Below, one piece after another: positions 11,391-57,205 of a stretch of DNA of 64,000 bases. The notes below the pieces were generated by a model. It saw only the letters and a list, made by a program, of their open reading frames with translations, searched no databases and was not told where the DNA came from. The DNA lies in assembly GCA_009869945.1 (NCBI GenBank), contig WIXG01000054.1, forward strand, positions 62,001 through 126,000, in the 5' to 3' direction. The stretch comes from Mesaphorura yosii (taxonomy: Eukaryota > Arthropoda > Collembola > Poduromorpha > Tullbergiidae). Position 1 is the stretch's first letter. Each line of letters starts with the position of its first letter. The translations under genes and the position numbers were made by a program.

Positions 11391-13354
11391 ATGTCAACGC
11401 AGAAGAAATCCAACAACTTCCGCAATGCTAACAAGCCCACAGTTGTGCCGATATCCGGAAATCAGTCAGGTGAGTCTTTAATTTGGGAACACATTTTGTA
11501 TTTCAAATTCAATTTCACGCGTATCGGTTTTTAACATAATTCAGGCACAATCCCATCCTGGCTGGAAGGCAATCTCTTCAGAAATGGGCCTGGGCTACAG
11601 ACAATCGGCCCGGACACTTACAAGCACTTCTTCGATGGGCTCGCCGTGCTGCACAAATTCGAAATTAAAGACGGCAAAGCGACGTACCAATCCAAGTATC
11701 TGGAGAGTGACGCGTACAAAAAGAACATGAAGTCGCAGCGGATTGTCGTCAGTGAATTCGGCACGCACCGCCACTCCGATCCGTGCAAATCTTTGCTGGG
11801 TAAATTCATGTCGTACTTCCACCCATTTGAAGTCACCGACAACTGCAACGTGAATATGGCGTTCTACGGTGATCAACTGTACGCCATGACCGAGACAGAA
11901 TTCGTGCGGCGAGTCGATCCAAAGAACTTGGACACGATTGGGGAGAAAGTGAAGCTCACCGACTACCTGACCATCAACCACGCGACGGCACATCCGCACA
12001 CGCTGCCGGATGGGACCATGCTGAACATCGGGAACAATTATCGCCACAAGAAGGGGCCACATTACTGCATTATTCAAGTGCCGCCAACTTATGAGACTGA
12101 TGGTAGAATCGCTTTAATTTTAACCTTCATAATCATTTTCCTGTTGCTCCTAATTAGTTTGCATCTTCCAACTCAGAAACCTGCTTCAAGGACGCTAAGC
12201 TGATCGCCGAGATTCCTTGCCTGTGGAAGTTTAAGCCGTCTTACTATCACAGCTTCAGTATCACGACTGAATATATTATCTTTGCCGAGCAGCCATACAC
12301 ATTAAGCGTGCCCAAGATTCTGACGTCTGACATTCGCGGTGCGAGCTATTGTGAATGTCTCTCTTGGAACCCCAACGAAAAGGTATCCATTCCACAACAC
12401 AGTCACAATAGAGCCAATCCCCCGCCTGTGGAATGACCACTTGTGATACAAACATTTCCGTATGCTTTAGACAAGAATTCATGTGATATCGTTCTCAACT
12501 GGCGAAATCCATCCAATTATTTACGAAACCTGTGACCTCTTCATGTTTCATCAAGTAAACGCTTACGAAGTGGATGGACAAATTGTACTGGATTTGGCAG
12601 GGTACAACAGCGCAGAGTTTGTGGAGAAATCGATGAGGGGCCTTATGCGAGATGAGGAGCACCTGCAGCAAAATTACATTGAGGGTGCCTCTCTCAGACG
12701 ATATGTGTTACCGCTTGACATTGACAAGGTAAATTCCGAAAGGAAATCTAATGCGCAGGCACCGTTTCACTTGTGCAGTCGCTTTCAAATGGATTAACGA
12801 ATTTGGTCTTGTTATCTCTTTCCTAGTACGCGCCGCTCGGAGCCAACCTCGTGACAATACCAGGTACGAAGGCCACAGCAAAACTCCGCACCCGGTCCGT
12901 GAGGGAAACCGTCCTCGAGTTGACACCTGATCATCTCGCTCCCTGGATGGAGTTCCCGCGAATCAATTATAAGTACAACGGCCAAAAATACCGGTATATC
13001 TTCGGAGTTGGAGCAAGCGAGAAGCGGATGCAGGAAAGCATCATTCCCGAAGCCGACAAACTGGTCAAGTTCGATCTGGAGACGCGGGAACAGGTGACGT
13101 GGACGAGAGAAGATGTGGTCGTGGGCGAACCGGTATTCATCGCAAACCCCGAGACGGAGTCGCCTGCAGAGGACGATGGCGTACTGCTTTCTCCGGTTCT
13201 GCACGTCGACGACGACAAGAAAGTCACACTTCTCGTGCTCGATGCGAAATCGATGAAGGAACTGGCGATGGTCGAGTTCACGACGGATGGTCCGGTTCCG
13301 GGGACGTTTCACGGGCAGTGGGCGCAGGATGGAGAAGAAATTCATGCTTTTTAA
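11391..13354 (+). CDS. Carotenoid cleavage oxygenase A (BCO/NinaB/RPE65 family)
   Basis: The enzyme family cleaves carotenoids (for example beta-carotene to retinal) or isomerises retinoids with a non-haem iron. Five exons (11391..11469, 11545..12102, 12177..12382, 12471..12728, 12827..13354) give 542 residues, the usual family length. The four iron-binding His are visible: in NHATAHPHTLPDG, YYHSFSIT, FMFHQVNAYE and the C-terminal GTFHGQW. The N-terminal EGNLFRNGPGLQTIGPDTYKHFFDGLA segment begins the beta-propeller. No signal peptide is seen, which fits a cytosolic enzyme. An AATAAA lies 40 bp after the stop. A close paralogue follows 570 bp downstream. The substrate (carotenoid or retinoid) cannot be told from sequence alone. 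Confidence 0.95.
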
Positions 13355-13923
13355 TTTATTGATTCTAAGATTCCTGCCCATTTTCAGTATATTAATAAAT
13401 ATCGTGAATATCAAGAAACCATTGTGCCCCGTGAAAATGTCTTACTAATGACTTAATTGAGCCGCCTTGCTCCTAAGATTGAGTAAAACTGAACTGAATT
13501 GCCTGAGATCTGCGTTGTCTACTTGTCGCACTGATATTAACATGCTAGTTCTAATCGTAAATAGCATATGGTGCAAAGTCTACCATAAGAGAGTAAGTGT
13601 TGCAAAAAATTACCAGCCATTAAACCGATTACGTAATCTGCTCTGCACGTTCGCCACTCGCAAGCTTCTCGACGGCTGCTAGTGCGCCTCTCGCATGCTC
13701 ATCGTGCCTAAAGCCTTTATAATAAAACGCTGAAAGCAGATTCAGCTATAATTCCAGTCTACAGATGGTAAACAAAGGTTTAAAGCTTAGTAAGGCTTAA
13801 TAGTCCACCTGTCGTGTAACCTTCCACTTTATAGATTGCGTGAAGTGTAGAGTAACAGACAATCTGTGAACCGCGTGTAAGTTTTCAATTTTAGTTGGAT
13901 CATTTATCAGGTACTGGAGTAAA
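13355..13923. other. Spacer between the two carotenoid oxygenase genes
   Basis: Contains a likely polyadenylation signal of copy A (AATAAA at 13394) and the promoter of copy B. A TTTATAATAAAA stretch near 13716 is TATA-like but about 200 bp before the start codon of copy B. No further gene is seen. Confidence 0.5.
13394..13399 (+). terminator. Polyadenylation signal, carotenoid oxygenase A
   Basis: Canonical AATAAA 40 bp downstream of the TAA stop. Confidence 0.6.
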
Positions 13924-15761
13924 ATGGCACCTCCGAAAAAGTCCAACAACTTTCGCAATGCAAACAAGCCCACCGCCGTGCCGGTCGCAGGAAAGCAGTC
14001 AGGTAAGACTGAAGTAAAATCACCGCTTCTTCACTGTAGCTACTATGCTGACTGTTGGCTCGAAATTCAGGTCAGATTCCAGCATGGGTGGAAGGCAACT
14101 TGTACCGAAATGGGCCCGGGTTACAGACAATCGGTCCTGACACTTACGACCACTTCTTTGACGGGTTGTCGCTTCTTCACCGATTCGAAATCAAAGATGG
14201 AAAGGCTACGTATCAATCCAAGCACTTGGAAAGCGATACATACAAAACGAACTTGCAAGCAAAGAGGATCGTATGTGGAGAATTCGGAACTGTCGGGTTC
14301 CCGGATCCCTGCAAGTCTCTGCTGGGCCGATTCATGTCATACTTCAAGAAGAGTGATACAACGGACAACTGCAACGTGAACGTAGCATTTTATGGCGATC
14401 AGCTTTACGCAATGACCGAGACAAACTTCGTCCGACGCGTGGATCCAAAGACGCTGGAGACAAACCCAGAGAAGATTAACCTCAGCGATTACTTGACCGT
14501 GAACCACGCGACAGCACATCCGCACACGCTGCCGGACGGATCCGTGTTGAACATGGGCAACAACTACAAGCACAAGAAAGGACCGCACTACTGCATCATA
14601 AAAGTGCCACCAACGTACGAGTCTGATGGTAAGTTCCATCCGTCGCTTTATTCAATTACGCAACCAGTCAACATAATTATGGAAAATCACGCTTCTGTAT
14701 AGAATCAAGCTTCAAGCAGGCAGAGATCGTCGCAGAGATCCCTATGCGCTGGCGCTTGCACCCTTGCTACTACCACAGCTTTGGAATGACGACAGACAAA
14801 ATTGTCTTCATCGAGCAGCCGTACTGCATGAGTGTGCCCAAGATCATGACCATGCACTTTCGTGGAATGTCCTTCAAGGACGTGTTGGATTGGTATCCAA
14901 ACGAAAAGGTACTTAAACCATTAACTTGTAATTCGTGCGACCATTGCCTCCTAATTCCTCAATTTGCGTCTAATGCAGACAAGAATCCACGTCGTGTCAT
15001 TAAAAAATGGAGACATTCATCCGATCGTCTATGAGACCACCGACCTCTTCACTTTCCACCACGTGAATGCGTACGAGGAAGACGGCCACATCGTGCTTGA
15101 CGTGTGCGCGTATGACAGCGCCGAATTTGTCAACAAAACGGTCAAGGGAATGATGATGATGGACAAGAAGTGGAAGGATCCCCTCCCAGGTGCGGCGCTT
15201 CGACGATACATCCTTCCTCTGGAAGTTCCAAAGAACGCGAGCGAAGGATCCAATCTCGTGAGCCTACCCGGCGCCCGGGCGAGCGCCAGACTCCGTTCAC
15301 AAACCAACAAGCAGACCATCATTGACGTGGCACCAGAAGTGTGCACGCCTTGGGTCGAATTTCCACGAATCAATTACAAGCACAACGGGCAGAAGTACCG
15401 GTACGTGTTCGGAGTCACGGCAACCGAGAAGCGACGCCAGGAAAGTGTCATCCCAGAAGCAGACACACTGATCAAGTACGATCTAGAGAAGCGACAGATG
15501 CTCAGCTGGAAGAATGATAATGTTCTCGCCTCCGAACCAGTATTCGTCCCCAACCCAAATGCCGCACCGGGCGCGGAAGACGATGGTGTTCTGCTTTCAG
15601 CGCTGTTGCACGTGAACGAGGAGAATAAGGTTACTTTGCTTGTCCTCGACGCAAAAACGATGAAGGAGCTGTCGACGGTTGAGTTCACGACCGGCGGGCC
15701 GGTTCCAGTCACATTTCATGGACAATGGGCACAAGACGGAGAAAGGGTGCATACTTATTAA
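13924..15761 (+). CDS. Carotenoid cleavage oxygenase B (tandem paralogue of A)
   Basis: Second member of the tandem pair. Four exons (13924..14002, 14071..14628, 14703..14908, 14979..15761) give 541 residues. The first three exons are identical in length to those of copy A (79, 558 and 206 bp), and the N-terminal exon is almost the same protein, SNNFRNANKPT in both. All four iron ligands are kept: NHATAHPHTLPDG, YYHSFGMT, FTFHHVNAYE and TFHGQW. The last exon of copy B corresponds to the last two of copy A, with the intron at VPLDIDK absent and only a few residues different at the junction. The high similarity suggests a fairly recent tandem duplication. Differences near the active site, such as MTTDKIVFIEQPYCMS against ITTEYIIFAEQPYTLS, leave room for altered substrate preference, which is inference. 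Confidence 0.95.
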
Positions 15762-47910: not shown

Positions 47911-49540
47911 ATGGTGAGTTTCGGTCAACTCAATTATGCTGATCAGGACTGACGTGCTCAGAATTTAATACCCTTAGCCAAAAGAAAGATTATTACACTT
48001 TATCATTAGGGCAAATTTAACCCTAATGAGGTTAGTTTCAGTAAGAAAGTTAACGTAGAATTGCAAATTATGACATGACATCCTTCTGCTACGAGATTCT
48101 CTGGAATTTGGGTCCCAACGTCCCAAGGTACTTGTTGGTTCCATTCCCCTGAACTCCGTCACAATTTAACGCTGACCCCGTCAGGCCAATACAAATGATT
48201 GGCATAGAAATGTGGAGCGAACCTTGGCCTTCTGACAACCCTTGTGTTCACTTAAAGGTCACCCGCTTGCCGCCTCGTGCTAGTTGAATAGATGGAACTA
48301 GGAACGGTCGGAGACCGTATAGTTAAGGTCTCCGATCTCGGACTAGTTCATTTTTATATAATCTTGGTTAATTCAAGGAGGTCATAAGCTGATCGAAGTT
48401 GGTGTAAATGACACGCACCTTCCTCTTTTCCAGCACAAGCTCAAGTCAACGCAAAAGGACAAAGTGAAACGTTTTGTTTCATTCACACGAACCAGCGAAC
48501 AGCTAGCTATACATTGCTTAAGTCAACACGATTGGAAGCTGGAGCTGGCATCAGACGCATATTTTCAGAATCCTGATAGCTACTGGCGCGAAATAATGGG
48601 AAGCAAGGCCATATCTACAACCTCGTCGGTAGACAGGAAGAAGGTCGAGCAACTCTTTAACAAATACCGGGGCAAAGGTAAAAATAATTCACTTGAATTT
48701 GATATTGATTGATGCTCGCATTCGAAATGACAATTTTGTGTCAACCTGTGCAGAGACTCACGAATCAGATCGAATGGGAGCTGAGGGCATATTTCGTTTC
48801 CTCCAAGACTTAAACTTAGCACCAGATTCTCGTCTTGTCCTCATAATGGTTTGGAAAATGCGAGCGGCAACTCAATGCGAATTTACTAAAGACGAATTTG
48901 TCAGTGGTATGGTTGAGATGGGGTAAGTTTTTATCATTGGTCAATAGTCTAGAATACTGAATATGAATTCTTGAAAACCCTGTGTTAAGTTGAAATTTTT
49001 TCTAATGTGTATCACCATTTCTGATTTTAGGGTCGACTCTTTGGACAAACTCAAGGCCAAGCTGATTCAGATTGAAAATGAGACCCTTCGAGATAACAAT
49101 AAGTTTCGTGATTTGTACATATTCTCATTCGGCTACGCAAAGAATCCTAATCAGAAAGGTATTGAATTGGAAATGGCGATTCCGTACTGGAATATTTTAT
49201 TGCAAGGGCGATTCCCTCTTCTTACCCTTTGGACAGAATTTTTACAAGTAAGCACAAAATTAAGAGCGAATCTGTACGATACATCATTGGCACAATTAAT
49301 GATGCGTAATTTCTGTTGCAGGAACAGCACAAACGCTCGATACCTCGTGATACTTGGGTACTGTTGTTGGACTTCTGTCACAGTATTTCATCTGACCTGA
49401 CTAATTACGACGAGGAGGGAGCCTGGCCAGTACTCATTGACGACTTTGTTGAGTGGGCACGTCCAAAACTGAGCGGTGTATCGTCAAAGGCTGCGTCAAC
49501 AACCTCTTCACTGTCGGCTTCGTCATCGTCATTTTCTTGA
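47911..49540 (+). CDS. DCUN1D: DCN1-like protein (cullin neddylation co-E3)
   Basis: Scaffold-type E3 that promotes NEDD8 transfer to cullins. Five exons (47911..47913, 48434..48677, 48754..48922, 49031..49247, 49322..49540) give 283 residues. The start codon is the entire coding content of its exon: ATG is followed at once by the GTGAGT donor. The protein then reads [18 protein letters not shown] (UBA-like N-terminus, as in DCUN1D1/2, which begin with a similar MNKLKSSQKDKV). The potentiating-neddylation (PONY) domain includes [71 protein letters not shown] and [22 protein letters not shown] Ser-rich tail ends the protein. A 66-codon open frame without an ATG precedes the start codon and encodes a hydrophobic segment (see findings). 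Confidence 0.95.
48004..48028. repeat. Inverted repeat in DCUN1D intron 1
   Basis: CATTAGGG and CCCTAATG are separated by 9 bases. An 8-bp perfect stem. Confidence 0.8.
48295..48349. repeat. Two-part inverted repeat in DCUN1D intron 1
   Basis: An inner 9-bp stem (TCGGAGACC / GGTCTCCGA, 10-base loop) is nested in an outer 7-bp stem (GAACTAG / CTAGTTC), with short internal unmatched stretches of 6-7 bases. The whole element spans 55 bp. Confidence 0.8.
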
Positions 49541-50152
49541 GGCCACGTCCAGACTATGTATAAACCGTAATCGAATCGCCAACCTCACGTCTGTTGATCT
49601 ATCACTAATGCAGTACACTTAGGTTACTTTAAGACGTGTTATTCTGATTGATTAACATTAATTAGCTGTTTAATTAACCCACTTACTTGCGATTTTTCTG
49701 TTCTAATAAGTGTAAAAAGCCAGTCATTGCGGTCAGCAGTCATGCGTAATATTCTTATTACTTGAACTAATTTAATCGATTAAAATAAGCTGATGCGCTG
49801 TTATTGCGACTTGATCCTTCATTTGAGTGCACTGCATTTCAACCCATAGTGACCCTTGGGCATAATTTAACATCACAACAGAGTTGAGATAAGCGGTTGG
49901 TTGCTAAATCGAAACTGCCTTGAACCTTGTAAGGGAAACGTTGGACGAAACTGTTTGAACTGTCACATTTCTTAAAGAAACACAAAACTCTCAAATGACG
50001 TGCCCGAGATACTTGCCAGTTGCTAAATTCAAGTTCTGGAATTTGACTCTGAATGATATTAGCCTGCCATCATGATAAGCACTCAAAACACAGGACGCTG
50101 GGCTGTTTAGTTTCCTAGTTTTATTTATTTCCTTGAGCCATACATTCCGAAA
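49541..50152. other. Convergent 3' UTRs of DCUN1D and chorismate synthase
   Basis: About 610 bp. Minus-strand AATAAA copies at 50125-50120 and 50129-50124 serve the chorismate synthase. No further gene seen. Confidence 0.5.
50120..50129 (-). terminator. Polyadenylation signal, chorismate synthase
   Basis: Two overlapping minus-strand AATAAA copies about 25-30 bp after the TGA stop, consistent with a eukaryotic mRNA 3' end. Confidence 0.6.
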
Positions 50153-51579
50153 TCATTTCCTTAAAACCGGTCTCGCTCTACTTATTTGCACCAGTGCAGC
50201 GTCCATGAGCACTATTGAGGCCATCGCTTCGACCAGCGGCACTGCTCGGGGCAGGACACACGGGTCGTGCCGTCCGGTTCCTTTCAGCTGTACCAGCTCT
50301 CCGTCAAACGCCGCCGTTTCCTGTGACTTGCCAATTGTCGACACTGGTTTGAAGGCGACGCGAAAGTAAATGTTTGACCCGCTCGAAATTCCTCCCAGTG
50401 TCCCACCAGCGTAGTTTGTCTTGGTCTTCAGTGGCACTGCTTTCGTCGTGGACTTGGTGTCTGTGCCGTTGACGTTTTCACCTCCAGCGATGAAGCAGTC
50501 ATTGTGAAGCGCTCCGCGAAGGCGCGTGCCACGGAATCCTGAACCAATCTCAAATCCTTTTGTCGCAGGCAGGGAAAGCATGCCATGTGCGAGAAGAGCC
50601 TCCAGTTTGTCGAACACAGGCTCGCCAAGTCCAATAGGCACATTCTGCACTAGGCAAGTAACGACTCCACCAATCGAGTCCTTGTCGTGTTTCACTTCAC
50701 GAATACGTGTGGCCATTCTAGCCGCGTATGACGGATTCGGGCAGCGTACGTGCAAGTAATCGGCTGCACTTCCGTTGAACCAATTATTCACGTCGACGGG
50801 TATCTTTTCCATTGGCAGCAGAGCTCCGAAGCGATTGTAAATTATTCCATCCAAATCTTGGTAACATGCCGTATCCTCGTCGAGAGGTGATGCGATAAAA
50901 ATTGATTCATCATCCGTGGCAGTGTGCTCGGGGTCACGAAGGATCTTCAGACAACCTAGTCGGTCAATGTCGTCGCGAGTCCAATTATCACCGGGTTCCA
51001 TTCCGACGTTGAAGGCATTGTCGTCCATGTCCACATCGCCGACGGAACTCACCCACGCCACGACGTTTGTGCCAAACTCTTGCTTTAGCCACTTGTCAGC
51101 AATTGCGCCCGCACAAACACGACCAATTGTCTCTCTTGCACTTGACCTGCCTCCACCGCTACTCGCCTTGATTCCGTACTTCAATTGGTACGTAAAGTCT
51201 GCGTGGCCTGGTCTCGGCACATCTGCGAATGAGCTGTAGTCTTTTGGAAACTGGTCCAGATTCGGGACGACCAGCCCGATTGGTGTCCCCAGTGTGTATC
51301 CTTTCTCCACGCCACTTTGGATAGTGACCACGTCTGATTCAGCTCGAGGAGTGGTCAGGTTGTTCTGCCCCGGCCTGCGTCGATTCAATTGTGGTTGAAT
51401 ATCTGCTTCGGACAGAGCGAAGCCTGGCGGACAGCCGTCAACTATAGCGCCAACACTTTTCCCGTGTGACTCGCCATACCTGGACCGAGAATATTGCCAA
51501 TTAGTTTAGCAACGCAACGCAGAATGCAGTTAATGTCGACTTACGTGGTGACACGAAAATGCCGTCCAAAGGTGCTCAT
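50153..51579 (-). CDS. aroC: Chorismate synthase (shikimate pathway enzyme in an animal genome)
   Basis: The enzyme removes phosphate and a proton from 5-enolpyruvylshikimate-3-phosphate to make chorismate, using reduced FMN. Two exons (51579..51545 and 51479..50153) give 453 residues. Exon 1 reads MSTFGRHFRVTT and joins in phase 2 to YGESHGKSVGAIVDG. Active-site motifs are intact: GESHGKS and RRRPGQN near the N-terminus, PRPGHADFTYQLKYGIKASSGGGRSSARETIGRV, DSIGGVVTC, GLGEPVFDKLEALLAHGMLSLPATKGFEIGSGF, GGTLGGISSGSNI and GRHDPCVLPRAVPLVEAMA. It is longer than typical versions (about 350-430), mainly because of a stretch of roughly 60 extra residues between VSSVGDV and LHVRCPNP. One short intron, AATAAA signals and animal genes on both sides argue that it is part of this genome. 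Its likely origin is horizontal transfer; donor unknown. Confidence 0.93.

Positions 51580-52504: not shown

Positions 52505-57205
<4,701 letters not shown>

Follow-up and report, generated by a model that had tools for sequence, protein, structure and literature searches.

The window (the whole stretch of DNA analysed, 64,000 nucleotides, C54:62001-126000) carries on its minus strand a chorismate synthase (CS) gene of two exons, whose joined frame is open over 453 amino acids. The locus is composed as follows, in window positions:

48362..49540, plus strand: DCUN1D-type flanking gene, with UBA_4 and Cullin_binding exons
50120..50129, minus strand: a pair of AATAAA hexamers that overlap, some 23 nt past the CS stop
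50153..51479, minus strand: CS exon 2, including the stop TGA; it carries a 67-residue insert
51480..51544 (65 nt), minus strand: CS intron, GT-AG (GTAAGT...CAG), phase 2
51545..51579 (35 nt), minus strand: CS exon 1, encoding MSTFGRHFRVTT, its last codon split
about 52505..56325, minus strand: Blimp-1-type flanking gene, with PR domain and C2H2 zinc-finger exons

The first-pass annotation had described a complete CS frame with an intron in phase, AATAAA signals after the stop, and a position between DCUN1D and Blimp-1, and all of this was borne out. The domains of the two neighbours were computed; their gene names are presumptive. The protein scored far above the cut-offs of both family models (Pfam Chorismate_synt, 413.5 bits, cut-off 27; NCBIfam aroC, 407.6 bits, cut-off 212.2) and was the single CS match in the whole assembly (93.0 Mb, 1127 contigs). 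When it was aligned with five PDB chains, two of them fungal and three bacterial, and one MAG sequence, 83 of the 85 columns invariant in these six references were kept. The insert, residues 188-254, lies between two conserved halves and is absent from all six references. Third-position GC content (GC3) was 0.54, next to 0.48-0.53 in native sets of genes picked by hand from contigs C54, C146, C87 and C150. The open frames and the retained invariant columns suggest that the gene has been under selection, and the presence of a real, intact CS gene in an animal genome is supported. Elsewhere in the window (11535-15761), two adjoining frames of carotenoid-oxygenase type that look alike (RPE65 family) were observed, of which the one at 14052-14699 was tested.

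The CS protein was 60.9% identical to the enzyme of Candida, 59.9% to that of yeast and 50.7% to that of a Bacteroidetes MAG; identities to the three bacterial chains were 49.2, 48.4 and 42.3%. Among PDB entries, fungal enzymes scored 441 and 439 bits and bacterial ones at most 287 bits. In a tree of seven CS sequences, made up of the animal protein, two fungal and four prokaryotic ones, the animal CS joined the two yeasts, outside their pair, with a support of 1.000. Based on these PDB scores, identities and tree position, we regard the CS as eukaryote-type. Its RHDPC motif is common to the bacterial chains; the two yeasts have RHDPA or RHDPS. Nearest-relative scans, which rely on exact eight-residue patterns and thus miss much, returned one relative of the CS (51%) from bacterial and archaeal genomes, and from viral contigs none for the CS and none for gene A described below.

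Animals are generally considered to lack the shikimate pathway. It had been suggested in the first-pass annotation that the gene could belong to a rebuilt partial pathway, and a search of the genome for the other shikimate enzymes and for chorismate-using enzymes was proposed there. The five steps before CS and a chorismate mutase (CM) were indeed found elsewhere in the assembly, so that membership in a rebuilt pathway stands; its extent had been understated, as the steps from DAHP to prephenate are encoded. Family searches of the whole assembly located EPSP synthase (EPSPS) and DHQ synthase (DHQS) both on contig C146, in two genes:

L007:4234-2270 on C146, minus strand: gene A, 654 aa, no intron needed; DHQS fused directly to a type I DHQase
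L007:4990-8662 on C146, plus strand: gene B, 1200 aa, with one 70-nt GT-AG intron

The two genes are divergent, with 755 bp from ATG to ATG. Gene B encodes, in this order, EPSPS, shikimate kinase (SK), a segment of 220 aa without recognised family, and shikimate dehydrogenase (SDH). All named domains of both genes scored above the Pfam cut-offs. Against the NCBIfam models, aroB was passed (355.2 vs cut-off 305), aroD and the AROM-type SDH were narrowly missed (126.3 vs 139.3 and 191.7 vs 196, respectively), and the aroA score refers to a partial frame of gene B only. The best PDB match of either gene was fungal AROM, with 408 bits for gene A and 511 bits for gene B (frame with exon 2). As the five activities are split over two divergent genes, we call them AROM-derived and not AROM. 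GC3 was 0.48 in gene A and 0.52 in gene B.

Judging from its position in the AROM order, we infer that the segment of gene B is a decayed DHQase. Islands of it align with DHQase; the profile score was 1.1 bits, a value matched by 17 of 500 shuffled sequences, and an AlphaFold2 single-sequence model had a mean pLDDT of 39.6. Because the segment has no significant similarity to DHQase, the history of duplication and loss proposed below is likewise one that we infer.

Downstream of gene B lie an ML-domain gene (NPC2/Der p 2 family), a serine-protease-like frame recognised by eye and an HSP70-family gene. A carboxylesterase-family exon was found about 22-27 kb before gene A, together with an exon without Pfam match that we take to be the transmembrane part of neuroligin. 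From the look of the neuroligin, NPC2 and Blimp-1 sequences, the host may be an arthropod, perhaps a mite. The GC content of C146 was 0.409-0.445 in five 10-kb stretches, like that of the window. Near genes A and B, two open frames in tandem that look alike, 445 and 465 aa long, were also noticed (L008:246-1580 and 2517-3911 on C146, minus strand). A second member of the EPSP synthase family is present in the assembly, on contig C87. C87 carries a MurA-type gene (C87:6939-8402, minus strand, L009), intronless and open over 487 aa, which scored 422.5 bits against NCBIfam murA (cut-off 392.7) and 295 bits against a bacterial MurA in the PDB, that is, a gene for a bacterial cell-wall enzyme in an animal assembly. 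Frames within the next 10 kb of C87 presumably belong to Raptor.

The eukaryote type of both CS and AROM would also be expected if the pathway of the holozoan ancestor had been retained in this lineage while almost every other animal lost it, and choanoflagellates still have a shikimate pathway according to PMC6040629. However, such retention would require many independent losses, and in the same paper the pathway is taken to have disappeared along the stem lineage of animals. We consider vertical retention improbable and horizontal transfer of the CS and its pathway likely.

As for chorismate-using enzymes, the search yielded a mutase, but no match to chorismate_bind (anthranilate-synthase type) in the assembly. 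The CM was the one match of its family, located on contig C150. It scored 97.0 bits against the AroQ-gamma model TIGR01806 (cut-off 74.15), and its best PDB match was a cyclohexadienyl dehydratase/chorismate mutase protein (62.7 bits). Exons of CAAX-protease type (Peptidase_M48) and of a cytochrome P450 are its neighbours. Neither prephenate dehydratase (PDT) nor the N domain of prephenate dehydrogenase (PDH) had a match in the assembly. Since family matches were made exon by exon, genes with many short exons may be missed; furthermore, the best PDB match of the CM indicates that the dehydratase may belong to a class outside the search. The main gap in the route is the step from prephenate to phenylpyruvate, for which a cyclohexadienyl dehydratase would be plausible.

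These observations could also be read to mean that the CM has nothing to do with the pathway, having been acquired separately as, for instance, a secreted protein, and that chorismate has a different fate. The AroQ-gamma class is exported in bacteria, the CM gene lies on a separate contig, and PDT and PDH had no match; moreover, transferred chorismate mutases have been reported in plant-parasitic nematodes (PMC4828791). On the other hand, for a genome that makes chorismate and has one open mutase, a single pathway would be the simplest reading, and the cyclohexadienyl dehydratase in the best PDB match leaves room for a dehydratase class that the search did not cover. We consider an independent CM possible, but rather doubtful.

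Taken together, open frames for DHQS, DHQase, SDH, SK, EPSPS, CS and CM are present on C54, C146 and C150 among animal-type neighbours, and between them they encode every step from DAHP to prephenate. Contamination of the sample by a microbe or another eukaryote, or an assembly artefact, has to be weighed as their source, the more so as a second animal is possibly present in the assembly (see below). Nevertheless, the CS, genes A and B and the CM lie amid animal-type genes on contigs of 297, 178 and 175 kb, respectively, and their GC content resembles that of the rest (0.409-0.463 in 17 10-kb segments of C54, C146, C150, C87 and C36). The CS and gene B contain introns, and GC3 is host-like. 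No near-identical prokaryotic CS was found in the limited scan, and a search of the assembly for COX1 gave no match of any kind, mitochondrial or microbial (the control was positive in 8 of 14 genomes). From this, a microbial origin of the CS, genes A and B and the CM by contamination is unlikely, and contamination or artefact in the broad sense appears very remote.

The first step of the pathway is a different matter. Class I DAHP synthase (DAHPS) had no match in the whole assembly, and class II DAHPS was found as one gene, on contig C441 only (whole-assembly search, PF01474 exon matches):

C441:9336-7791 (L018), minus strand: class II DAHPS, four exons, 445 aa open once three introns are removed

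The introns measure 68, 79 and 61 nt; the first, at the junction of exons 1 and 2, is workable only as GC-AG, with GCAAGT as its likeliest donor. The protein scored 332 bits against a bacterial class II structure. GC3 was 0.78 in this gene and 0.65 in two gene sets from C441. The contig had a GC content of 0.471-0.555 in five 10-kb segments, compared with 0.409-0.463 in the 17 segments from other contigs. Mean dinucleotide differences were 0.053-0.079 between C441 and other contigs and 0.035-0.074 among the others. Tetranucleotide correlations between C441 segments (0.51-0.59) were above any to other contigs; after normalisation for GC, C441 correlated with the others at 0.33-0.39 and the others with one another at 0.20-0.37.

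C441 also carries an SPT6 gene (L025:3885-5207) with 29.7% identity to the human protein over 397 positions, and a second SPT6, on C36 (L032), reached 43 and 49% identity over two stretches. These two genes of very unequal divergence could point to a second animal in the assembly or to a paralogue of an odd kind. The ISWI core encoded by C441 was identical to the mammalian protein in 58 of 96 residues. From its high GC and the divergent second SPT6, it follows that C441 may belong to another animal. However, among 20 sampled contigs, C440 had a GC content of 0.545 and C442, C600 and C1100 of 0.485-0.511, the other 16 ranging between 0.351 and 0.476. GC-rich DNA is thus not unique to C441, although a second genome would fit this as well. 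In an all-versus-all comparison of 26 contigs or pieces, the sole match was between C36 and C441, next to the SPT6 matches and presumably SPT6 coding DNA. As the remaining contigs had nothing in common with one another either, the comparison speaks neither for nor against C441. We regard the chances that C441 belongs to the same genome as the CS as about even.

Should C441 be foreign, the pathway would lack DAHPS, and its enzymes would work on intermediates that the animal obtains with its food or from symbionts, for example quinate, dehydroquinate or shikimate. The occurrence of class II DAHPS on C441 only, the failure to find class I, the outlying GC, the divergent SPT6 and the ISWI core all point in this direction. 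Against it, DHQS is still open and above its cut-off, and we know of no DHQS substrate other than DAHP. In addition, DAHPS is not expected in an ordinary animal contaminating the sample, and the GC-normalised tetranucleotide signature does not separate C441 from the other contigs. A pathway without its first enzyme is therefore conceivable, though we are inclined to doubt it.

We consider it quite probable that the gene in the window is a genuine nuclear CS of the animal and stands at the end of a eukaryote-type (AROM-type) shikimate pathway that was probably acquired by transfer. According to the explanation proposed here, an AROM gene would have entered the lineage and given rise to an inverted duplicate, after which complementary domains would have been lost from the two copies. 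The upstream region common to genes A and B may allow their joint expression. DAHP would be supplied by the class II DAHPS of C441, whose membership is uncertain; chorismate would be converted by the AroQ-gamma CM to prephenate and this, via a putative dehydratase, would lead to phenylalanine and tyrosine. The predicted enzymes would be active and would supply aromatic rings, most likely those of phenylalanine, from which the animal's own phenylalanine hydroxylase would form tyrosine. In its fullest form, the proposal describes a bilaterian that makes chorismate de novo by a complete seven-step nuclear pathway of AROM origin, with AROM duplicated and split into two complementary divergent enzymes, and that carries EPSPS and is freed at least partly from dietary aromatic amino acids. 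This full form might equally well be right or wrong.

Among the matches listed from the open-licence literature (subscription papers and preprints lie outside it), none reported a shikimate pathway of AROM type from an animal. The main text of the trombidid mite genome paper (PMC6275457) contains no words in shikim-, chorism- or arom-, and that of the 2026 compendium of metazoan transfers (PMC13342648) none in shikim- or chorism-. Elsewhere, arthropods are said to be supposedly incapable of making aromatics (PMC7542773), shikimate transcripts are claimed for the nematode Heterorhabditis indica by authors who call revalidation essential (PMC9612587), and matches to shikimate pathway genes are mentioned once in passing for bdelloid rotifers (PMC11258130). 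We take the find to be an animal's nuclear shikimate pathway with a split AROM; its coding covers the steps from DAHP through prephenate and may be complete from central metabolism onwards. An AROM that is spliced, split and placed in animal synteny would demonstrate that an entire pathway for essential nutrients can be regained, and would be an instance of a fused gene for several enzymes whose tasks came to be shared by two copies. It opens aromatic autotrophy of an animal to direct tests by isotope labelling, glyphosate sensitivity and yeast complementation; if the proposal is true, the animal itself carries EPSPS, the target of glyphosate.

Several known systems resemble the one described here. 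For the sea anemone Nematostella vectensis, too, transferred genes for shikimate enzymes have been claimed (PMC3018139 and PMC6040629). Those genes are bacterial and dinoflagellate in origin according to PMC3018139, whereas the present ones are AROM-type, spliced and set in animal synteny. The transferred chorismate mutases of plant-parasitic nematodes also reside in animal genomes, but are candidate secreted effectors according to PMC4828791, while here the CM occurs beside chorismate-making enzymes. As for the CS, the closest counterparts are yeast ARO2 (PDB 1r52) and the Candida enzyme (PDB 7rca), with about 60% identity, from which the animal protein differs in its insert of 67 residues at 188-254, its RHDPC motif and its location in an animal. 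Finally, genes A and B together hold all five activities of fungal AROM (PDB 6hqv, 7u5s), and gene B preserves the fungal order of EPSPS, SK, the DHQase position and SDH. Where fungal AROM has its DHQase, however, gene B has the segment without recognisable DHQase, and in place of a single polypeptide there are two divergent genes in an animal genome, one of them a direct fusion of DHQS and DHQase.
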